Source of the DNA: a virus | Length of the DNA stretch: 24,011 nucleotides | Virus record (IMG/VR): IMGVR_UViG_3300005295_000054 | Location: 1-24,011 of that record | Direction: 5' to 3' (one strand) | In this document: positions 2,759-23,130 of the stretch, piece after piece | How the letters are laid out: each line of letters opens with the position of its first letter | How positions within the stretch are numbered: position 1 is the first letter of the stretch | Made by a program: the position numbers and the translations under genes | Notes under the pieces: model-generated | What the model saw: only the letters and a program-made list of their open reading frames with translations | Told to the model about the DNA's origin: nothing | Databases searched by the model: none

Positions 2759-3403
2759 ATGAAGAAAGATTACACCCATATTAGTATGATTTTGGATAGA
2801 TCAGGATCAATGAAAGATTTAATTAAAGATGCGATAGGTGGATTTAATTCCTTCCTAACAAATCAGAAAAGTATTAGTGGTCAAGCTACTATGTCAGTAG
2901 TGCAGTTTGATGAAGAGTATGAAATACTTCACGATTTTAAATTAATTAAAGATGTACCTGAATTGAATCTTAATACGTATGTTCCTAGAGGAATGACTGC
3001 TTTGATAGATGCCATTGGCAGAACAATAGAATCAACAGGCAAACATCTTGAAAGTTTGAAGGAAGAAAATAGGCCAGAGAAAGTTATAGTGGTTATAATT
3101 ACAGATGGTCTTGAGAATTGTAGTAAGCTGTATGAACCTTGCAAGGTTAAAGAAATGATTGAACATCAGACTAATGTTTATGGTTGGCAGTTTACTTTCA
3201 TTGGATCAAATCAAGATGCAATCCTTAGTGCTAGCGATTTAGGGATTGCTGCTGCTTCAGCATTAACGTATGATCCTAATCAACAAGGAACTAAAGCATC
3301 GTATGATGCACTATCGAGAAGTATTGGATCATTGAGAATGGGCATTACTAAGACATTGAGCTATAGTCTACAAGATAGAGAAGACGCACAGAAACTTAAA
3401 TAA
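2759..3403 (+). CDS. von Willebrand factor A (VWA) domain protein, 214 aa
   Basis: The whole protein is one VWA domain. The metal-ion-dependent adhesion site is complete: D13-R-S15-G-S17 in ILDRSGSM, Thr80 in GMTALIDA, and Asp116 in VVIITDGLEN. The alternation of strands and helices fits the Rossmann-like fold (MSVVQFDEEY, VIVVIITDG, WQFTFIGSNQD). There is no signal peptide or membrane segment, so it should act in the cytoplasm. Phage VWA proteins are known but their roles are mostly unknown; VWA domains usually bridge proteins, often with MoxR-type ATPases, and none is seen here. GGAG sits five bases before the ATG. It is the last rightward gene. Confidence 0.9.
   Translation: MKKDYTHISMILDRSGSMKDLIKDAIGGFNSFLTNQKSISGQATMSVVQFDEEYEILHDFKLIKDVPELNLNTYVPRGMTALIDAIGRTIESTGKHLESLKEENRPEKVIVVIITDGLENCSKLYEPCKVKEMIEHQTNVYGWQFTFIGSNQDAILSASDLGIAAASALTYDPNQQGTKASYDALSRSIGSLRMGITKTLSYSLQDREDAQKLK
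2936..2950. repeat. 15-mer motif site inside the VWA gene
   Basis: TTTAAATTAATTAAA, full match. It encodes FKLIK in the VWA protein, only 199 bases from the previous site. Confidence 0.85.
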
Positions 3404-7413: not shown

Positions 7414-8902
7414 ACTGTGTCAAAGCATAATTTAATCTACTTTGAATATCATTTATGATTTTCTGTACTGTATTTTTTTGTTCAGGTGTCTTTGCTCTCT
7501 TCATAGATTCCTGTGCAGCTTGCAATCTGGTTCGTAAATAGCCTACAGTTCCAGCTTTATCAAACCTTTCGCCTATAGCAGAAATACCTTTACCTATCCT
7601 ACTCTCCATAAAAGGAGTACTTGTAACACTCTCTTCAGTAAAAGTTGATGATGCAGTAGGTTTAATACCAAGTATTTCTATAGCTCTATTCTTTTCAGAC
7701 TGTGGAAGATCACTATTAAGTATTTGTTGCTTAACTTGTTCAGGTGTTTTAGTTTTCAAATCTTCTTTTATCTGATTTGTCAGTTGATCACCTTGTTCTA
7801 ACTTTTTATTAATAATATCTGTCTGTTGTTTTGTTTGACCAACAGCAGTATTAATCTGTAATATTCTTCTCTGTTGCTCAGCAATATTTTCAGCAGCAGG
7901 CAAAGCTATAGTAGTGTATTTCTCATTTATAGGAAGTTTATTAACTTCTTCAAGAGATATGATAGCACCACCAGGAGTTTTATAGAACTGAGTTTCCATA
8001 ATATCAAGCTTCTGTTTGGTTGCCCAATTCTGCATTGTATTATTGTAAGAAGCATTCTTTGCACTAATCATTGCAGCATTAGCACCTATCAATGCAGCTT
8101 GACCTCTTTGTCCAGATTCTTTAATATCTGCTCTTACCTTCGCTTCTGATAAATCTCTTTGTTCCTTAGCTTCATCAAATATAGCTTTATTAACAGCAAC
8201 AATTAATTCTTGTTCTTTAGTAGTAATAGGAGTAGGATCAATACCTGACTTCTTACTTACAACACTCTGCAATGTTGTAGGATCAGCATTAGGTACTAAA
8301 GCTTTAGCATTTGATTCCCACAATGCAGCATCTTTATATTTCTGTGGGAGTAAATCAATAACAGCCGCATTCTGTTTTCTTCTATTTCTTGCAGCCTCAT
8401 TCGCAGATTCAAAAGCTTCATTCTGTTCAAGTAAAGATTTATTACTAGCAAGTTGAATATCTGCTTCAGTTTGTTTCTGCTGTTTAAATAAATTAATTCC
8501 ACGCTGTTCTTTAGCAACTTCTTGTTTGAATAATCTTCCTTCTTTTCTAACCTCTGACTGTTCTCTTGCCATACCTTCAGCTCTCTGGAATCCAGCTTGC
8601 AGTGTAGCTTGATTGACAAGATTTTGTCTATTCTGTATTGCTTGTGTTGCTGCATTTCTTTCATCAGCTTTAGCTTTTAACTGTCCTTGTAACACAGCAC
8701 CTGGATCATTAGAAGCTGCAACAGCAGAAGCTTGAGCAATAGCAGTTAATATGCGCTCAAGTGTTCCCATTGGCTTTGCTCCTGTCAATGGTTGATTGTT
8801 TATGCCAGCAATCATTTCTTGTAAACGTGCGTATGGATCAGCCTGTTGTGGTTGATTCACATTTGGATTTAGAAAATCTAAATTCATAAAAGGAATTGGC
8901 AT
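7409..8902 (-). CDS. coiled-coil, Gln/Ala-rich probable ejection protein, 497 aa
   Basis: Composition is dominated by Gln, Ala, Glu and Lys. Long predicted helices run from about residue 75 to 180 (AKADERNAATQAIQNRQNLVNQ, EGRLFKQEVAKEQRGINLFKQQKQTEADIQ) and again from 240 to 400. The first 35 residues are proline- and asparagine-rich (MNLDFLNPNVNQPQQADPYARLQEMIAGINNQ). It lies between two other probable internal virion proteins, in the place of T7 gp15 or P22 gp20. No enzyme motif is seen. GGAGG sits six bases before the ATG. The call rests on position and composition. Confidence 0.6.
   Translation of the reverse strand: MPIPFMNLDFLNPNVNQPQQADPYARLQEMIAGINNQPLTGAKPMGTLERILTAIAQASAVAASNDPGAVLQGQLKAKADERNAATQAIQNRQNLVNQATLQAGFQRAEGMAREQSEVRKEGRLFKQEVAKEQRGINLFKQQKQTEADIQLASNKSLLEQNEAFESANEAARNRRKQNAAVIDLLPQKYKDAALWESNAKALVPNADPTTLQSVVSKKSGIDPTPITTKEQELIVAVNKAIFDEAKEQRDLSEAKVRADIKESGQRGQAALIGANAAMISAKNASYNNTMQNWATKQKLDIMETQFYKTPGGAIISLEEVNKLPINEKYTTIALPAAENIAEQQRRILQINTAVGQTKQQTDIINKKLEQGDQLTNQIKEDLKTKTPEQVKQQILNSDLPQSEKNRAIEILGIKPTASSTFTEESVTSTPFMESRIGKGISAIGERFDKAGTVGYLRTRLQAAQESMKRAKTPEQKNTVQKIINDIQSRLNYALTQF
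8483..8497. repeat. 15-mer motif site inside the 497-aa gene
   Basis: TTTAAATAAATTAAT, last base off. It encodes INLFK. Confidence 0.75.
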
Positions 8903-8903
8903 T

Positions 8904-9863
8904 TTATCCTCCGAAGCCTATTGTCGGTAAAGAAGAAGTTCCTGCACCACTAACCCCACCAAACAAACTGCCTCCAGCCACACCAGCACCTAAAGATGCA
9001 GCAGTTGTAACACCTTTCATTATATTATTAAACAAAGCTTGACGTTCTTGCATTCTCTTCATTTCATCAAACTGACGTATTTGCTCTTGCAATGTTCTAT
9101 AAAATTGATCGTTTTGATTAGTAACTTGTTCCTTCTGTACTCCAACTTGTGCGCCAGATACATCTCTATTTAATGACTGATTAAGTAAATTAAGAACAAA
9201 CTCTTGCATACCTTGATCTTGTGTTTGCTGTCCTTGAGTTAAGAATTGTTGAACTCCTAATTGTCTTTGTGCTTGCTGACCTTGTGCTTGACTTCTTACT
9301 AATCCTTGTCGTTGTTTCGCTTGTCCTAATATATCACCAGCAATAGAACTTGATCCAACACCTTGTCCAGTAAGTTGTGCAATTACAGTTCCAATCTCAT
9401 TATCAAATTGTTCTTGCAATGCTTGATCCTCAGCAGCTTTCATCTGTTGCAACAATGCTAGAGTTTGTGGATCAAGTTGTGACAATGCAAGTGGGTTTTT
9501 AAATAAATTAACTAGATTAGGTAGTAATGTATTTATTGCTGACTGCTCTCCTTTTGAAGAAGGAAGCACAGCAGGCCGATTAGTGGAAGATTCAGATACT
9601 TCACCTAATCTTGGATCAGTTCCACTAAGATTTCTAATAAGATTATGGATATATCCTTCTGGATCAGCATATGATACTTGCCCAGCAGTTCTACCAGTCA
9701 CCATACTTTCGTTGATTCCTGCTGGTAGTGGTATATTTCCATAAAACTTGCTAACTAAATCTTGATATTGTGGTGTACCATACACACTCTGCTGTGCTGC
9801 ACCTTTCAATCCCATTGATTTAGCTAACTTCTCTATCTCTAATTGAAATGGATTTAATGCCAT
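8904..9863 (-). CDS. Gln-rich probable ejection protein, 319 aa
   Basis: The N-terminal third is mixed (PFQLEIEKLAKSMG, GYIHNLIRNLSGTDP). The middle is an extreme Gln-rich helix (residues about 140-270: QALQEQFDNEIGTVIAQ, AKQRQGLVRSQAQGQQAQ). The last 40 residues form a glycine-rich hydrophobic segment (GVTTAASLGAGVAGGSLFGG) that could insert in a membrane. This layout, coil then glycine-rich hydrophobic tail, resembles the small ejection proteins of podoviruses (T7 gp14 or P22 gp7 type). Its ATG overlaps the previous stop as TAATG, with GAGG upstream. Confidence 0.6.
   Translation of the reverse strand: MALNPFQLEIEKLAKSMGLKGAAQQSVYGTPQYQDLVSKFYGNIPLPAGINESMVTGRTAGQVSYADPEGYIHNLIRNLSGTDPRLGEVSESSTNRPAVLPSSKGEQSAINTLLPNLVNLFKNPLALSQLDPQTLALLQQMKAAEDQALQEQFDNEIGTVIAQLTGQGVGSSSIAGDILGQAKQRQGLVRSQAQGQQAQRQLGVQQFLTQGQQTQDQGMQEFVLNLLNQSLNRDVSGAQVGVQKEQVTNQNDQFYRTLQEQIRQFDEMKRMQERQALFNNIMKGVTTAASLGAGVAGGSLFGGVSGAGTSSLPTIGFGG
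9498..9512. repeat. 15-mer motif site inside the 319-aa gene
   Basis: TTTAAATAAATTAAC, last base off. It encodes VNLFK. A weaker three-mismatch copy lies at 9180-9194. Confidence 0.75.
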
Positions 9864-15542: not shown

Positions 15543-16560
15543 CGTTGACAGTGATACCAGTGATCGCCCCTTGACGCGCACGGTTGTTAATTGTCAAATT
15601 ACCATACACAATAACCTGACTAACCTTAGCATCTTGATTCTCTGGACGCTGCATATCAGTAACCACAAAATTCTTACCACGTCCAACTACAAATTTCATG
15701 AAATCAGCATTCAGGAACTTAACCTGATGATCTGTTCCACCCGCCAACAACGTGGCAGAAGGCATATCCTCATCAAAAACAACAGGTGTTTCCTTGAAAA
15801 GAAGATTCATAAAGCCAGCATCGGCCATCTTCTGATCTATCATTACACGATAGTTAGACGATGTTTGCTGCATTGAACGCTCATACAACTCATAGATCAA
15901 CTGATCGGTAATAATTACCGTAGGTCGAACCTTACCACGCATACAAGAGTTGTATATACGCATCCATTCTCCAAGCATAGCAAGAGTACCAGCAGAAGGA
16001 GCAGCAAGAGAAATGGCTGTTACTGAATCAAGCCACTGATTTCTCCAATAGGTGAAAGCGTTGGAGTCAATACCACCATAAGTTGACCAGACAGCACCAT
16101 CTTCAACAGCAAGACCAAGACCAGTAATATCTTTTCCACCATTACCAGTACCATCAGCCTGAAGCTGTCTATTGATTTCCATCATCATTGAGAGTTCAAG
16201 CTGTGTGATCTTAGACTGAAGCAAAGAAATGACCTTAGTCTTTGATCCACCATTCTTAAATTCCTCTTCACCAGAGATGGATACTGATCCTGCAACCTGT
16301 TTCCAATTGAATTCGGCAGCAGTAATACCAGTCTGCGGCGCAGTATCAATGATGTCATAGCCAGCGTATGATTTTACTGTGGTATTACGACCAACAAGCA
16401 ATGGCTCGACAATTGAAGTTCCGCCTTCGTCTTCTCTAACGAAGCCTCTTTCCTTCAACTGATACCACAACACTTGATGTGCCGTAATGTTATCAGCAAG
16501 ATTGGCCCTGTAGTTCTTTAGTGTAGTAGCTACCAGGGTATCAAAATTGGGATTGGACAT
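15538..16560 (-). CDS. major capsid protein, HK97 fold, 340 aa
   Basis: The protein follows the pattern of a widespread family of phage capsid proteins: an N-arm YRANLADNITAHQVLWYQLKERG (residues 17-39), then GGTSIVEPLLVGRNTTVKSYAGYDIIDTAP, the E-loop region, then AAEFNWKQVAGSVSISGEEE and a spine helix (VISLLQSKITQLELSMMMEINRQL). DGTGNGGKDITGLGLAVED and the late RPTVIITDQLIYELYERS are also typical of the family. GGAG sits eight bases before the ATG. It forms the icosahedral shell. The N-arm is echoed in the 67-aa product at 20004-20207. Confidence 0.92.
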   Translation of the reverse strand: MSNPNFDTLVATTLKNYRANLADNITAHQVLWYQLKERGFVREDEGGTSIVEPLLVGRNTTVKSYAGYDIIDTAPQTGITAAEFNWKQVAGSVSISGEEEFKNGGSKTKVISLLQSKITQLELSMMMEINRQLQADGTGNGGKDITGLGLAVEDGAVWSTYGGIDSNAFTYWRNQWLDSVTAISLAAPSAGTLAMLGEWMRIYNSCMRGKVRPTVIITDQLIYELYERSMQQTSSNYRVMIDQKMADAGFMNLLFKETPVVFDEDMPSATLLAGGTDHQVKFLNADFMKFVVGRGKNFVVTDMQRPENQDAKVSQVIVYGNLTINNRARQGAITGITVNA

Positions 16561-16605: not shown

Positions 16606-17517
16606 CTAATTGCCACCAAAGAGTTGATTAAAAGCATCATCCACAGCATCGGTTACTGTGTACTGCTTAGTTCCCTTCTTTGGATTGACATTAGTCATAA
16701 TTGTCCGCTGTGCGCCAGGAGTCTCTGTTGAAAGAGCATTAGCCCTTTGAACAAGCTCTTGTGCCGTCTGTGGCTGTCCACTCGGAGTAGACCCATTGGA
16801 CGGTTGAATAGTGCTATCCGTAGCGGTAACTGGTTTTGTCAATCTAGCTTGCTTAAGCTGTAAATGAATATTGACAAAATCCATATTCGGATCACTTTTC
16901 AGAACTCCACTTTTGATAAGATTATCTATGGTGGGAAGTGTACCTTCTAGGAAATCTTTACCAAACCTAGTAGCAGCATCATTAAAACTAGCTCTTACAC
17001 CTAGCTCTGCTTGCTTACCAATCAAAGGTTTGATTTCTGTACTGAATAAAGCCTTAAATTCATTGCGAATTATATCTCTGATATTATTAGGATCACTAAC
17101 ATCAACACCTGTATAATCGTATTCTTCTGGTTGTTGAGTTTGCTGTGGCTGTTGATTCTGTTGACCGTTTAAATTATTTAAATTCGCAGTCTTCTGTCCT
17201 TCAAGAAAAGAAGCGATAGTAGCAATACCTTGCTCAAGCCTAAGAAATCTTTCCTCATTAGGATCAGGTGTTTTAGATGATTCTTGTGTTTGTGCTGGTG
17301 TTTGTACTTGCTGCTGTTGAACTACTGGCTTTGGACCTATCTCCAAATTACCAGTATCTTGGTTAAGAATAAAAGAAAGGCTGTTAGGGTCTTGATTAAG
17401 AAATCCAGCAGGCGTACCTGGATTAGCAAACGGATTAGGCGAAGGCTTTAATACAGTTTGTGTATCACTAGGGGCGTTACTTGGATCAGGTATATTATTA
17501 TTGCCGTTTACGAGCAT
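16606..17517 (-). CDS. scaffold-like protein, 303 aa
   Basis: The gene lies directly before the major capsid gene, the usual place for the scaffold. The first 130 residues are disordered and rich in Pro, Gln and Asn (NIPDPSNAPSDTQTVLKPSPNP, VQQQQVQTPAQTQ). A helical centre follows (NNIRDIIRNEFKALFSTEIKPLIGKQAEL; LPTIDNLIKSGVLKSD). The C-terminal end (PKKGTKQYTVTDAVDDAFNQLF) has a basic patch before a helix, as in scaffolds that bind the inside of the coat. The ATG overlaps the zinc-ribbon gene by 20 bases, with AAAGGAAA upstream. No protease motif was seen. Confidence 0.75.
   Translation of the reverse strand: MLVNGNNNIPDPSNAPSDTQTVLKPSPNPFANPGTPAGFLNQDPNSLSFILNQDTGNLEIGPKPVVQQQQVQTPAQTQESSKTPDPNEERFLRLEQGIATIASFLEGQKTANLNNLNGQQNQQPQQTQQPEEYDYTGVDVSDPNNIRDIIRNEFKALFSTEIKPLIGKQAELGVRASFNDAATRFGKDFLEGTLPTIDNLIKSGVLKSDPNMDFVNIHLQLKQARLTKPVTATDSTIQPSNGSTPSGQPQTAQELVQRANALSTETPGAQRTIMTNVNPKKGTKQYTVTDAVDDAFNQLFGGN
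17168..17182. repeat. 15-mer motif site inside the scaffold gene
   Basis: TTTAAATTATTTAAA, full match. It encodes NLNNLN within the disordered region. Confidence 0.85.
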
Positions 17518-18038: not shown

Positions 18039-18128
18039 CTACTTCTTTTTCTTTGAGTAATAGACAGTTGGTTTACGTTTCTTAGTTACTTCCTTCTTTG
18101 CTGGTTTATAAACTATTTTCTTTTTCAT
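18039..18128 (-). CDS. lysine-rich basic peptide, 29 aa
   Basis: A short frame follows the portal gene, with its ATG inside the portal stop (ATGA at 18128-18125). The stop is TAG at 18041-18039. Thirteen of 29 residues are Lys and one is Arg (MKKKIVYKPAKKEVTKKR, ending SKKKK); the rest include three Tyr. AGGGA lies about nine bases upstream of the ATG. The coupling, the codon-by-codon lysine richness and the fit to the gap between two real genes favour a true gene. Such a peptide could bind DNA or the acidic portal or scaffold. Function unknown. Confidence 0.6.
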   Translation of the reverse strand: MKKKIVYKPAKKEVTKKRKPTVYYSKKKK

Positions 18129-19993
18129 AATTGCATCCCTAAAGGGTTTCCATTCTGAGTTATACCCTGTAACATTGCATTTAATCCTGGTTGCACTGGT
18201 GCTGTTGTTGGTACCGTCCCATTAGTAGCTTGCTTGTTTGGATCAGGTGGAGCAGGATTCTCTAGTATTGGTGGTGTTGGAGTCTGAGCAGGTAAGAAGA
18301 ATCTACCTGCATCCTTAATACCAAACTTCTCCATCATCCAGCCAAATAAAGCATTATAGTCTATTTGCAATAATCCAGGTGGTGCAGACGTAGTGATTTG
18401 CCAAACCTGTACTGCCATCTGCCTATCAACAAGTGGATCAACTTTAGGAGCAGAAATAGTATCCATAAAAATATCTATCTCTTCTCTTATCATTTCAGGT
18501 GTAAGCGTTTCCCAATACTCACCTTCAGGACCAAGCAATCTAACAACTCTATCTTTATTAAAATTACCTTTAATGTGTTGAAGAGTATGCTTAGCATTGG
18601 TCAATACAAATTTATCTATAGTAGCTATTCTATCTTCAAGCTTTAATCTAAATACAGATGTTCTTGTATTTACTTCTACGCCAGTTGTCCTAGCTGGAAC
18701 TGCCTGACCTCTTAGAACTGCGTCTAATCCTGTTGCTCCTTGGACATCAGACCGTATCATTCCTTCAACAAGTTGTGTATCATCTGGCATAGGTGCATCC
18801 GGTATTGGAACAATGGAACCAATTTGCTTAACTCTAACCATTGCACCATCTTCGCCATTAGCAAATCTTGTAAGCTCACCTTCATCTACACCAGGACCAA
18901 TCTCATACTTTCTTGCAGAAAACCTACGTCTATGTTCAAATGCGTAGGTACGATTTCTGTTAAGTTCAAACTGTTGGTCCTCTATTTGATATGGTATACC
19001 TACTCCGTATAACTCATCAGGTAAAGTAATATAATCAAATTTGGTGAATGGAAATTTATCCAACCACGGATAAGGCCAGTCTTTAACGAGTAGAGCTTCT
19101 GGTACTCCATCTGCATATGTTCTAACCTTTCCATATTTCCAATCCCATACTTCGTAAAGCAATACAAGTTTTGATTCTGGCAATGCAGGATCATCAGTCT
19201 CCTTACTTAAATTATTTAAAGTCGGATCATCAGCGTGAATACCAAAGGCAGAGTTCTTATAAAGAAGTGGGTAATATCCTGATTTAATCTTATTTCTTAC
19301 CTTAGAATCATATCTTTCATTGGAAACTATATCCCTCTCAGTCTTAAGAAAAATCTCTGCACACCATTTCGCAGTTTCCAAGTTTGCTTCACTTGCCGTT
19401 GGATCAATAAGAAAAAAGAAAGGGCTAACCCTTTTAACATATGGACTATCTTTTTTAATATAATTTTCATATACTAAAGTCTTTCCGTCCATCTTCTTGA
19501 TAGACTCGTCTAATTCAAAATTATAACCATCTTTGATAATACCGTGTCCACAAATAGCTCCATCATAAACAGATTTCTTAACTTGTTCAATGGCTTCCAT
19601 TTGTTCATATTCATAGTTAAGTGTCTCTGTCTGAAGCATTACCGATTTAGTTTTACTCTGACGCCTAGCTTTACCTTGAAAGTATGGATGGCTATTCATC
19701 AAGAATGGAACAATATCAAGAATAGACGATTGTGTAATATTAACTGTAATTCTATCCCTCAACTGATCGCTTGATGGATCTTCTTCCTGTCTATCTCTCC
19801 AATGTTTCCCACGAAACATATCGTAAGCTCTATTCCAATTCTTATCCCCGTTCCAATAATTTTGTCTCCATCTTAATGTTTGCTGAAGTCTAGACATCCA
19901 TATGTCATTGTCACCTTTGAGAGACATACCTTCTTGTATTTCAAGAGCAGGAATATTATTTGGTTCGTATTTACTTGTAAGACTTTTAGCCAT
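18125..19993 (-). CDS. portal protein, 622 aa
   Basis: Size and position, directly after the terminase segment and before the capsid genes, fit a podoviral portal. The N-terminal segment WRQNYWNGDKNWNRAYDMFRGKHWRDRQ and the following DRITVNITQSSILDIVPFLMNSHPYF match the wing region of P22-type portals. VSPFFFLIDPTASEANLETAKWCAEIFLK and PARTTGVEVNTRTSVFRLKLEDRI are also typical of this family. The C-terminal 80 residues are proline-rich (PAQTPTPPILENPAPPDPNK). The portal forms the twelve-subunit ring through which DNA passes. The ATG touches a 15-mer and has no Shine-Dalgarno. It is translationally coupled to the basic peptide. Confidence 0.88.
   Translation of the reverse strand: MAKSLTSKYEPNNIPALEIQEGMSLKGDNDIWMSRLQQTLRWRQNYWNGDKNWNRAYDMFRGKHWRDRQEEDPSSDQLRDRITVNITQSSILDIVPFLMNSHPYFQGKARRQSKTKSVMLQTETLNYEYEQMEAIEQVKKSVYDGAICGHGIIKDGYNFELDESIKKMDGKTLVYENYIKKDSPYVKRVSPFFFLIDPTASEANLETAKWCAEIFLKTERDIVSNERYDSKVRNKIKSGYYPLLYKNSAFGIHADDPTLNNLSKETDDPALPESKLVLLYEVWDWKYGKVRTYADGVPEALLVKDWPYPWLDKFPFTKFDYITLPDELYGVGIPYQIEDQQFELNRNRTYAFEHRRRFSARKYEIGPGVDEGELTRFANGEDGAMVRVKQIGSIVPIPDAPMPDDTQLVEGMIRSDVQGATGLDAVLRGQAVPARTTGVEVNTRTSVFRLKLEDRIATIDKFVLTNAKHTLQHIKGNFNKDRVVRLLGPEGEYWETLTPEMIREEIDIFMDTISAPKVDPLVDRQMAVQVWQITTSAPPGLLQIDYNALFGWMMEKFGIKDAGRFFLPAQTPTPPILENPAPPDPNKQATNGTVPTTAPVQPGLNAMLQGITQNGNPLGMQL
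19206..19220. repeat. 15-mer motif site inside the portal gene
   Basis: CTTAAATTATTTAAA, first base off. It encodes TLNNLS. Confidence 0.75.
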
Positions 19994-20008
19994 TTTAATT
20001 TAATTAAA
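19994..20008. repeat. 15-mer motif site, gene junction
   Basis: TTTAATTTAATTAAA, full match. It touches the portal start codon and overlaps the stop of the 67-aa gene. Confidence 0.88.
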
Positions 20009-20207
20009 CTACCAAACTTTTATCTTTTAACATCAGCCAAAGCGGACTAGGTGCTGTAATATTATCTGCTAAATGCGCCATAACTAATTTCATACCTGTT
20101 AAAAACTTTGCTCCTTTTAGTGGCAAAGAAATAACTTTTCCTATTGGACAAGCATCATAAGAGCGTCTAAATTTATAACCTTTTATACTAAATGTTTGAA
20201 TAGTCAT
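20004..20207 (-). CDS. 67-aa mini-protein with a capsid N-arm-like C-terminus
   Basis: Start chosen at the ATG at 20207, which overlaps the end of the previous gene by 20 bases; upstream in-frame codons would give an unlikely Cys/Ile-rich leader. Residues 46-66 (LADNITAPSPLWLMLKDKSLV) align without gaps to residues 21-41 of the major capsid protein (LADNITAHQVLWYQLKERGFV): 12 of 21 identical, including LADNITA, LW, LK and the final V. The first 45 residues (MTIQTFSIKGYKFRRSYDAC, then PIGKVISLPLKGAKFLTGMK) do not resemble the capsid. Function unknown; it could compete in capsid assembly or derive from a gene duplication. Confidence 0.7.
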   Translation of the reverse strand: MTIQTFSIKGYKFRRSYDACPIGKVISLPLKGAKFLTGMKLVMAHLADNITAPSPLWLMLKDKSLVV

Positions 20208-20507: not shown

Positions 20508-20522
20508 TTTAAATAAATTAAT
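20508..20522. repeat. 15-mer motif site, gene junction
   Basis: TTTAAATAAATTAAT, last base off. It contains the terminase stop and overlaps the AAGG used by the Tat-signal gene. Confidence 0.85.
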
Positions 20523-22320
20523 TGCCTCTCCGCATTGTTGGTCGTTTTCCTGCTTTAAGACCTAGCTGTTCAATATGCCAATCAACAGAACCTTTAGGTG
20601 ATTTGTTTGGTATTACTGGTCTAGGTATATGAACTTGTGTTGCTATTTGTCTTGCTATCATTGCCGCTATTAAAAGATCATCGTGCTTTCCTGGTGATGC
20701 TCCAATCTTTCCATTCTTGAGTTTAACAAATGTTTTCATCTGTGTCAAGAGTTTTTTTGACTTAATATAGATTCTATTGTTTTGTATATCATCATCAAAA
20801 TCTCTAATCATTATTGGCCTTGTTTGATCGTTGGTTTTCCAACCATAAGCCATATCACCTGCTGCTGCTTCATAGGGATTTATTCTATAATATAAGTTTG
20901 GATAATTATAAAAATCCATAAGCTTTTCATTAGCAGCAAATCCACCTGGATCATTAATCTCTACAGCTATTAAAGCTTTATTATATATCAAACCTAAATA
21001 ATTTAAAACTCCTGCAAATTCAGATGGTTTGATAATATCGGAGAAACAAGCGACTTCTTCCATTTCAGGAAGTCTGAGGACGTAAGCCGTGCTTTCATCT
21101 CCATCCTTAATTCCTTGTGCTCCATCTGACCCGATAACATAGTGAATTCCTTCTTGTGGAGCATTATATATTTCAAGGTGGCCATACTTAGCTCTGCAAA
21201 ACTTTCTTCCTTTGTCTTTAATGGTGTCATCATGTTGGTATACATAAGTTTCAGCTTTCAGTTTTAAATTATTTAAAATCTCTTCCATCTGAAGAATCTT
21301 CTTTATGGGAAAAATAGACTTGCTTGATCCTTCAAATGCGTCTTCAACGGTTATGGGATATTCCTGTTTAAATTTATCCTTATCTCCAAAGCAATCAACA
21401 TCTATCTTGAACCTTCTCCAATTAAGCCTAGCCATCAATTCCTGCTCAAGCTCATACTCTGTTGTAATCTGAGGATACCAGAATTTGATTTCTGGTATCA
21501 TTTTCTTACGTTCTTCTATTTCATTCCCATATTTGGATTGTGGATCTTCAGACAACTCAAAGTATTGATCTATGGAAATAGGCTTACGGTAATCTTCCTT
21601 TGCTATACATCCAATAAATATCTTTCTAAAACCATTGGTGTTATCATACCAAAAATCTTTTAGATCATTATCGCCTCTTGCTGTTGATTCACCAACTATG
21701 AATGATCTTACTCCATCTACGTTAGGAACAGCATTAAATAAAGCCACAAATCTTTCTTTAATATCAATGCCTAATTCTGGATACTGACCAAGTTCTGTCA
21801 GTAATACGAACTTAGGAGTCTTTGATCTACCTAGCGTTTTTGTATCTATTGTGGCAGAACCAATATAAGAATCTAAACCAACATCACCTGTTCTATCTGC
21901 TTCTTCTACTGGATTAGCAAAGTAAATCTCCTTACGGTTCATTGTTCTAGTTTTAGGTCTTAACCATTTCTCTGTACGTAAGTGAGTTGTTTGAACATTG
22001 TTAATCATTGTCTGTGCTGAATCATCATCGTGAGCAATGATTAAAGCATTTTGGTTTGCAAACATTGTGCATAGCCAATAGAAGAGATTTATAAACCAAG
22101 TAGATGCGCCTCCCTTGCGCATCTTAACCAACAACCACATTATTCTATTTTGATCTGATTTCCAATCTTCTTGGAATATCTGCCATAATCTTATCTGAAG
22201 ATTATTAAATATAAATCTTACAAGTCTTCCACCTGGGTCTTTAATCCAAATGTTATAAGCGCAATACTCCTGAAAGTCATGTCGGAATTGATTAAACTTT
22301 TGAAGTATTGCGCTATTCAT
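20518..22320 (-). CDS. terL: terminase large subunit, 600 aa
   Basis: Both enzyme domains are complete. ATPase: Q-motif-like FIFNNLQIRLWQ (residues 37-47), deviant Walker A KMRKGGAST (66-74), Walker B FVLLTELG (171-178, Glu176 as the catalytic acid). Nuclease: first Asp at D399 (YVIGSDGAQG), Glu454 (IAVEINDPGG) and Asp547/Asp548 (GKHDDLLIAAMIA), the usual RNase H-like metal ligands. It cuts and pumps phage DNA through the portal. The gene is preceded by an Acb2-like gene instead of a small terminase. The ATG has no Shine-Dalgarno; a 15-mer ends four bases before it. Confidence 0.95.
   Translation of the reverse strand: MNSAILQKFNQFRHDFQEYCAYNIWIKDPGGRLVRFIFNNLQIRLWQIFQEDWKSDQNRIMWLLVKMRKGGASTWFINLFYWLCTMFANQNALIIAHDDDSAQTMINNVQTTHLRTEKWLRPKTRTMNRKEIYFANPVEEADRTGDVGLDSYIGSATIDTKTLGRSKTPKFVLLTELGQYPELGIDIKERFVALFNAVPNVDGVRSFIVGESTARGDNDLKDFWYDNTNGFRKIFIGCIAKEDYRKPISIDQYFELSEDPQSKYGNEIEERKKMIPEIKFWYPQITTEYELEQELMARLNWRRFKIDVDCFGDKDKFKQEYPITVEDAFEGSSKSIFPIKKILQMEEILNNLKLKAETYVYQHDDTIKDKGRKFCRAKYGHLEIYNAPQEGIHYVIGSDGAQGIKDGDESTAYVLRLPEMEEVACFSDIIKPSEFAGVLNYLGLIYNKALIAVEINDPGGFAANEKLMDFYNYPNLYYRINPYEAAAGDMAYGWKTNDQTRPIMIRDFDDDIQNNRIYIKSKKLLTQMKTFVKLKNGKIGASPGKHDDLLIAAMIARQIATQVHIPRPVIPNKSPKGSVDWHIEQLGLKAGKRPTMRRGN
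21263..21277. repeat. 15-mer motif site inside the terminase gene
   Basis: TTTAAATTATTTAAA, full match. It encodes ILNNLK in the linker between ATPase and nuclease. A weaker copy, two mismatches, lies at 20993-21007. Confidence 0.85.
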
Positions 22321-22324
22321 AGTT

Positions 22325-22339
22325 TTTAAATAAATTAAA
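22325..22339. repeat. 15-mer motif site, gene junction
   Basis: TTTAAATAAATTAAA, full match, over the stop of the Acb2-like gene and four bases before the terminase ATG. Confidence 0.88.
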
Positions 22340-22571
22340 ACTCTCCCTTGAGAGCAACTGAAGCATTACAAGCCATCCTTGAATCAGACAATTTCCTAAC
22401 AGCAGCAGTTTTGCCTGGACCATCAGGAAGCAATGGGATAACTTTCTTTCCAAGTTCAATAAAAGCTTCATTAATCTTGGAGTATGTTTCAGCGTCAGCT
22501 TTATTAGGTGCGTGATAGGTGAAAATAAATTCTATTTTCTCATCGTCAAATTGTGGATAAAACTGTCCCAT
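22335..22571 (-). CDS. acb2: Acb2/Tad1-hairpin family protein, 78 aa: anti-CBASS cyclic-nucleotide sponge
   Basis: The sequence follows the family pattern: FTYHAP (residues 17-22), a Tyr and a long amphipathic helix (AETYSKINEAFIELGKKVIPLLP), a Pro-Gly turn, then a second helix TAAVRKLSDSRMACNASVAL (the AxxxLxxaxMxaNaxiAL pattern). Acb2 proteins form helical assemblies that soak up cyclic di- and trinucleotides and so block CBASS, a bacterial defence that kills the cell on infection. The usual length is similar or somewhat longer. AAAGGAA lies seven bases before the ATG, next to a 15-mer. The exact ligand cannot be told from sequence. Confidence 0.85.
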   Translation of the reverse strand: MGQFYPQFDDEKIEFIFTYHAPNKADAETYSKINEAFIELGKKVIPLLPDGPGKTAAVRKLSDSRMACNASVALKGEF

Positions 22572-22580
22572 TTTTATTCC

Positions 22581-22595
22581 TTTAATTTAATTAAA
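22581..22595. repeat. 15-mer motif site, gene junction
   Basis: TTTAATTTAATTAAA, full match. It spans the stop of the barrel gene and overlaps the ribosome binding site of the Acb2-like gene. Confidence 0.88.
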
Positions 22596-23088
22596 ACCTC
22601 AAGCCAAGTCCAGCAGAGAAGGTTTGATTAGCAGGAGAGAAGAAAGCTTCTGACCTCTGCCAACCAACTTCTATTGGACGAACGTATATATAACCAAAGT
22701 TAAGATCAGCACCAGCACTATAAATCCTAGTAAAGACTTTATCAGAATTGTAAGTAGTATTAAGACCAAATACGACTTGACCAAATGGTTCAACAAATCC
22801 AACACGATAGCTTAGCTTAGGACCAAAAGCATAAGTGTCTGTGGGAGAAGTAAAGTTATCTCGCTTGTAGTAGAAGACTCCAGCAAGACGAAATCCTTTA
22901 TTTTCATTCTGTGAGTAAACCTTAGCATCAAGATTTACTGACAATCCCTGAAGATACTCAATAGCATCAATGGGATTAAGGACATATTCTGAATTAACAA
23001 AGTTGATTCCAACTTTAACTGTATCCTGGGCAAGCCCGATTGTTGAAATCATTAAAAGAAAAGTAAGTGTCAAAAGCAATTTACGCAT
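22591..23088 (-). CDS. secreted outer-membrane beta-barrel-like protein, 165 aa
   Basis: I chose the ATG at 23088 rather than an earlier one, because it gives a clean signal peptide (MRKLLLTLTFLLMISTIGLA, cleavage probably before QD) and has GGAG seven bases upstream. The mature part is a run of amphipathic strands of porin type (FRLAGVFYYKRDN, YAFGPKLSYRVG, PFGQVVFGLNTTYN, AGADLNFGYIYVRPIEVGWQ), ending SAGLGLRF; a C-terminal Phe is the BAM recognition signal. It has the length of an eight-strand barrel. It probably goes to the host outer membrane, perhaps blocking or masking receptors, as some prophage barrels do. Confidence 0.75.
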   Translation of the reverse strand: MRKLLLTLTFLLMISTIGLAQDTVKVGINFVNSEYVLNPIDAIEYLQGLSVNLDAKVYSQNENKGFRLAGVFYYKRDNFTSPTDTYAFGPKLSYRVGFVEPFGQVVFGLNTTYNSDKVFTRIYSAGADLNFGYIYVRPIEVGWQRSEAFFSPANQTFSAGLGLRF

Positions 23089-23101
23089 TTTATTCTCCGA
23101 T

Positions 23102-23116
23102 TTTAATTTAATTAAT
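23102..23116. repeat. 15-mer motif site, gene junction
   Basis: TTTAATTTAATTAAT, last base off, in the 42-base gap upstream of the barrel gene. A two-mismatch copy (centre changed) lies at 23230-23244. Confidence 0.83.
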
Positions 23117-23130
23117 ATTACCAAGTTTCC

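Follow-up and report, generated by a model that had tools for sequence, protein, structure and literature searches.

The question raised by this locus is why a phage should carry, between its terminase and its portal gene, a small gene whose product resembles part of its own capsid protein. The window analysed here is a stretch of viral DNA of 24,011 nucleotides (positions 1 to 24,011 of the IMG/VR record IMGVR_UViG_3300005295_000054). An initial annotation of this window had described a mini-protein that copies the N-arm of the major capsid protein, and its gene, called X in the following, is located as described there: X follows gene A in the slot between terminase and portal and overlaps it by 20 bases. 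The product of X is MTIQTFSIKGYKFRRSYDACPIGKVISLPLKGAKFLTGMKLVMAHLADNITAPSPLWLMLKDKSLVV. The positions of X and of the other features discussed are collected in Table 1.

Table 1. Features discussed in the text; positions are those of the window except for the last line, which refers to the phage L096.
Feature	Position	Strand	Evidence or remark
Major capsid protein, HK97 fold, 340 aa	15538-16560	minus	PHROG 9953, E=1e-71; NF033394, E=3e-76
Capsid codons 21-41, matched part of the N-arm	16438-16500	minus	Alignment to X
Candidate scaffold gene, possible partner of the N-arm	16606-17517	minus	Just upstream of the capsid gene; proposed from position and composition, no family match
Portal, downstream border of the slot	18125-19993	minus	PHROG 156; Pfam SU10_portal and P22_portal
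Gene X, ORF of 67 aa	20004-20207	minus	Member of the capsid-arm family without Tat-type signal
X codons 46-66, copy of the capsid N-arm	20010-20072	minus	12/21 residues and 37/63 bases identical to the capsid
Gene A, 102 aa	20188-20496	minus	Tat-type start MNRRNFLKSF and small conserved domain; 20-base overlap with X
Terminase large subunit, upstream border of the slot	20518-22320	minus	PHROG terminase matches
L096 slot gene	1413-1772	plus	Tat-type signal MNRRGFLKGLTAIIPVAVAS and a domain like head-decoration proteins encoded after the capsid

The ungapped match between residues 46-66 of X and residues 21-41 of the capsid, with 12 of 21 residues identical, could be confirmed. Its BLOSUM62 local score of 70 was reached by none of 5000 shuffled sequences (best shuffle 52), and the next-best frame across the whole window scored 33. 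Since only 37 of the 63 bases of the matched stretch are identical, the copy must be old, and a recent duplication of the window capsid gene was ruled out by this DNA identity together with a dN of 0.74. Taken alone, the similarity of the window copy to the capsid is modest: a profile of the capsid N-terminus, built from 47 other capsids with all X sequences excluded, scored it with E=0.027 and 14.2 bits among 16,220 scanned frames. The window copy had no match in PHROGs, Pfam or NCBIfam, and none in a tblastn search against 50,697 phage records.

A search with the window capsid led to 71 viral contigs. One of them, L003, represents a nearly identical phage (7912 of 7918 bases), and the capsids of L001 and L002 are 96% and 87% identical to that of the window. 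In L001 and L002 a longer X occupies exactly the same slot, overlaps gene A and is directly followed by the portal gene. Two further copies were found at other places. A scan of the DNA of the viral contigs for the pattern MNRRxFLK[G/S/R]F, which used no capsid criterion, gave five contigs including L002; the copy in L104 (MNRRNFLKRF...FVSFEERVRITLAKYRPIFADSITAKSPYVEFLRSRT), located immediately before a terminase, was found by this pattern and was assigned to the family because it is 49-54% identical to X of L001 and L002. A scan with the X alignment identified L109 on the L005 contig; its X (MNRRNFLKGLVCTGVVAIANP...PSFDELIATSLKLYAPKMRDNLFESKSIVWWQLRQRGYGFKESGSLIEPIIYGE) lies in the replication region beside genes resembling a primase/helicase and a DNA polymerase. 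With the window copy the family comprises five distinct members at three genome positions: the terminase-portal slot, the site just before the terminase and the replication region.

The X proteins of L001, L002, L104 and L109 share one plan, a Tat-type signal followed by a copy of the capsid N-terminus, which extends up to capsid residues 5-58 and takes in the N-arm together with the beginning of the E-loop. In L002 the signal part MNRRNFLKGFLATAAVVTLAPLAPIVELPVQN is followed by ATFEALIATTLKNYRRVIADNITMKSCVWMKFKELGWIGGGQDIVEPIVY, and the latter aligns with capsid residues of about 5-58. The capsid profile mentioned above retrieved X of L002 (E=8e-13), L109 (E=3e-9) and L001 (E=3e-6), and weakly the arm of L104 alone (E=0.016); besides full capsids it matched a short frame located within the L020 capsid region, and the remainder was weaker noise. 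In the opposite direction, a profile made from X of the four signal-bearing members detected the capsid N-terminus in the majority of 73 records, with a best E value of about 1e-14, as well as the window-type copy in L003 (E=5.9e-4). Mimicry of the capsid N-arm, originally proposed for the window copy, is a trait of the whole family. That the resemblance arose by chance, or from a general motif unrelated to capsids, is an explanation to which the E value of the window copy taken alone might still lend some weight. For the family, the longer copies of L002 and L109, which hold about 50 residues of the capsid, refute it, and, given the shuffling result and the profile matches of the X proteins to capsids, the chance that it holds at all is negligible. 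It is also these longer copies that make the homology between the window X and the capsid certain. Searches of the 50,697 phage records by tblastn with X of L001, L002 and L104 returned nothing or noise (ribonucleotide reductase), the L002 protein reaching the Mx8 capsid at E=3, and the species genome contigs, searched with portal and X alignments, gave no confirmed match. The identity of the family is well supported; what follows on its function is inferred.

To see which part of the capsid is copied, an AF2 model of the window capsid was used (33 sequences, pLDDT 82.7), which in Foldseek groups with HK97-fold capsids (6j3q, T5, SU10). The copied stretch is modelled as helices at residues 4-26 and 30-37 and strands at 41-44 and 50-53, and its position in this HK97-fold model identifies it as the probable N-arm and start of the E-loop. 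A separate observation concerns the capsid gene of L030 (8001-9129), which an ORF reading as a LAGLIDADG-type homing endonuclease (8384-8908) interrupts about 100 codons from its start; an intron or an intein-like insertion is therefore likely in this gene.

The second part of the X proteins, the NRRxFLK motif with its hydrophobic stretch, is present in all four relatives. Only X of L002 exceeds the curated Tat cut-offs (29.2 vs 22.7 in Pfam, 18.9 vs 16.7 in NCBIfam); X of L001 remains just under the Pfam cut-off (21.7 vs 22.7), and those of L104 and L109 are below the cut-offs. The window copy has neither an RR motif nor a hydrophobic core. Its first 45 residues, which the initial annotation had called unrelated, are indeed unrelated to the capsid, but they do resemble the signal segment of L002 (0 of 3000 shuffles better, z 4.8) and to a lesser degree L001 (10 of 3000 shuffles, z 3.2); a similarity to X of L104 was not detectable. 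The best interpretation of the window X is an orthologue in which the signal and a large part of the arm have been lost. A frameshift is not needed to explain its N-terminus, as the in-frame protein alignment to L002 works. The window copy would then be either a cytoplasmic variant or a decaying gene, and it may well be decaying.

The coding sequences of several signal-bearing copies show an excess of synonymous over nonsynonymous change (L002-L001, P=2.7e-7; L109-L002, P=1.6e-5; L001-L104, P=6e-5), in a test that is rough because synonymous sites are near saturation. The signal segment itself is under constraint between L001 and L104 (P=1.2e-5). No synonymous excess was detected for the pair L109-L001 (P=0.14) or for the window copy in any of its pair comparisons (P between 0.24 and 0.67). 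X evolves much faster than its neighbouring genes. The terminases and portals of L104 are only 39-43% alike to those of L001 and L002, below the likeness of the X proteins, and the gene therefore appears to move between phages. The rapid evolution of X, and a window copy without synonymous excess from which the signal and parts of the arm are gone, would also be in line with a by-product of recombination, that is, functionless chimeras of a Tat-type 5' end and a capsid 5' end which persist because they bridge genes, the window copy being a relic. We consider this improbable in view of the synonymous excess between several signal-bearing copies and of a two-part plan that four distant phages keep in open frames, at three positions and with saturated synonymous sites.

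What the arm might do can be approached from its partners in other phages, where it binds the E-loop once the shell has expanded and where its helices are reported contact sites for the scaffold and for the SaPI1 protein CpmB (PMC12749128). By analogy, the arm of X may bind the coat or the scaffold. The initial annotation had suggested that such a peptide tunes assembly, and in the corresponding explanation X stays in the cytoplasm, where its arm and that of the capsid compete for the spine helix of the coat or for the scaffold, and thereby tunes the head assembly of its own phage; in the relatives, the N-terminal segment would serve as a membrane anchor or be unimportant. The competition of SaPI1 CpmB at the N-arm helices that contact the scaffold (PMC12749128) agrees with this explanation, as does the window copy, which is signal-less and stands in the head gene cluster directly before the portal. 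It does not account for the constraint on the signal segment of the relatives, for the location of the L109 copy in the replication region away from the head genes, or for related phages with the same capsid type in which X is missing from the slot, and we regard it as unlikely. As a primary role, nothing that we found supports assembly tuning: the intact members are Tat-type, occupy three genome positions and are absent from the slot in related phages. The same three features mean that an accessory role at or beyond the membrane fits at least equally well.

Gene A combines its Tat-type start, which is below the cut-offs of the Tat models in the window, with a conserved domain of the form IEIPIDRFxTxxIT..QY. 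Homologues of gene A were found in the slot of L001 and L002; two others, L141 in the L030 phage and L146 in the L008 phage, lie near a gene resembling a DNA polymerase. A search for the origin of its small domain found no match to a virion protein. The slot position is dispensable, as X is present, absent or replaced among related phages: genes read as methyltransferase-like (L008, L093) or FkbM-like (L030) from their sequences take its place, L078 has a 62-aa ORF, and the slot of L005 is empty. In L096 the domain that follows the Tat-type signal of the slot gene matched a profile of head-decoration proteins from which L096 had been left out, with E=7e-5 to 4e-7. Small proteins of the Tat type are therefore carried repeatedly by these phages, and two kinds are built on parts of head proteins.

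Other small phage proteins with a Tat-type start have unrelated C-terminal parts (L076 6001-6303; L106 5001-5255; L110 6001-6378; on the minus strand, L103 4636-4956 and L105 574-888). Such small proteins of the Tat type seem to be a recurrent feature of phages.

The fusion of two different head-protein parts, arm and decoration domain, to the same kind of signal would be expected if X tethered heads to the membrane, with the signal docked at the inner membrane and heads bound, for assembly or storage there, by the arm or, in the case of L096, by the decoration domain. Most relatives do without X, and the position of the L109 copy in the replication region suggests another timing, so that we hold such a tether to be quite improbable.

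The explanation that we put forward, with somewhat less than even confidence, is that X is a mobile accessory gene which brings a mimic of the capsid arm to the membrane or the periplasm, where it acts in decoy or interference, and that the window holds a signal-less and possibly decaying copy. The Tat-type signal would bring X to the inner membrane, through it, or leave it anchored in it, and the arm would still bind the usual partners of the N-arm, the spine helix of the coat or the scaffold. X would then serve as a moron-type decoy or interference factor and not as an essential part of assembly, directed against related phages or against a host factor capable of recognising the capsid arm. 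X may interfere with a co-infecting relative, as already proposed in the initial annotation. We know of no periplasmic partner for the capsid arm. Tat passengers are usually folded, and the AF2 model of the L002 protein is poor (pLDDT 56), which together count against a simple export. A wider reading, which we regard as doubtful, is that these phages export pieces of their own heads (N-arm and decoration domain) via Tat and thereby block relatives, deceive a sensor of the host or keep heads at the membrane; the window copy would be a member whose signal was lost.

Compared with known families, X shares the N-terminal 58 or so residues of the capsids of PHROG 9953 and NF033394 (capsid_maj_Podo; e.g. 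those of the Myxococcus phages Mx8 and Mx9), but lacks the HK97 fold that follows, has 67-101 instead of 340 aa and carries an added Tat-type signal in four of five members. It does not belong to this capsid family: the fold is missing, L002 X matched NF033394 over positions 2-54 with E=7e-5 and 22.1 bits (cut-off 80) and PHROG 9953 with E=0.006, and the window copy matched neither. With Tat substrates (PF10518, TIGR01409) the signal-bearing members share MNRRxFLK and the hydrophobic stretch, whereas the passenger, a capsid arm, is not predicted to fold. The window copy is not a member of these families.

Small proteins that act on capsids also include the capsid-redirecting proteins of satellites, such as Sid of P4 and TcaP of PLE. 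CpmB, Sid and TcaP are satellite-encoded and, to our knowledge, have no export signal. These proteins bind the capsid and are not described as copies of it, which sets X apart, and the searches with X in Pfam, PHROG and NCBIfam gave no match pointing to any of them. One parallel is the capsid redirection by the small SaPI1 protein CpmB, for which binding at the N-arm helix is reported (PMC12749128). Another parallel is the sensing of capsids by host proteins, as with the Gol peptide of T4 Gp23 and with CapRel, where a short stretch of capsid suffices for recognition (PMC9712102); a copy of a capsid peptide could therefore act as a decoy. In these cases the sensed stretch is part of the capsid itself and is recognised in the cytoplasm, whereas X is a separate gene. 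A fusion of a capsid arm with an export signal is not described in PHROG, Pfam, NCBIfam or the literature searched. The X family is new to the libraries used, and its type of function, that of an accessory gene built on a borrowed virion part, would be a variant of known themes. No role of capsid parts beyond the inner membrane is known to us. If X reaches the membrane or the periplasm, it would represent a new exclusion or decoy device made from a virion part, or head assembly linked to the membrane.

Three further genes of the window were noted. The minus-strand ORF at 22335-22571, adjoining the terminase, encodes a protein of 78 aa that matches the Acb2/Tad1 hairpin domain below the cut-off (PF24729, 19.7 vs 27 bits) and is possibly a sponge of the anti-CBASS type; the product of L008 2239-2445, which has no Pfam match, resembles it by eye. 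The product of 22591-23124 (minus strand) carries a Sec-type signal and ends in F, in the manner of small outer-membrane beta-barrels, also without a Pfam match; look-alikes are encoded near the terminase in L005, L008, L030 and L078 and after the portal in L104, which suggests that these phages encode further envelope proteins. Finally, a plus-strand gene at 2759-3403 encodes a protein of 214 aa with a von Willebrand type A domain just below the cut-off (PF13519, 23.8 vs 27 bits).
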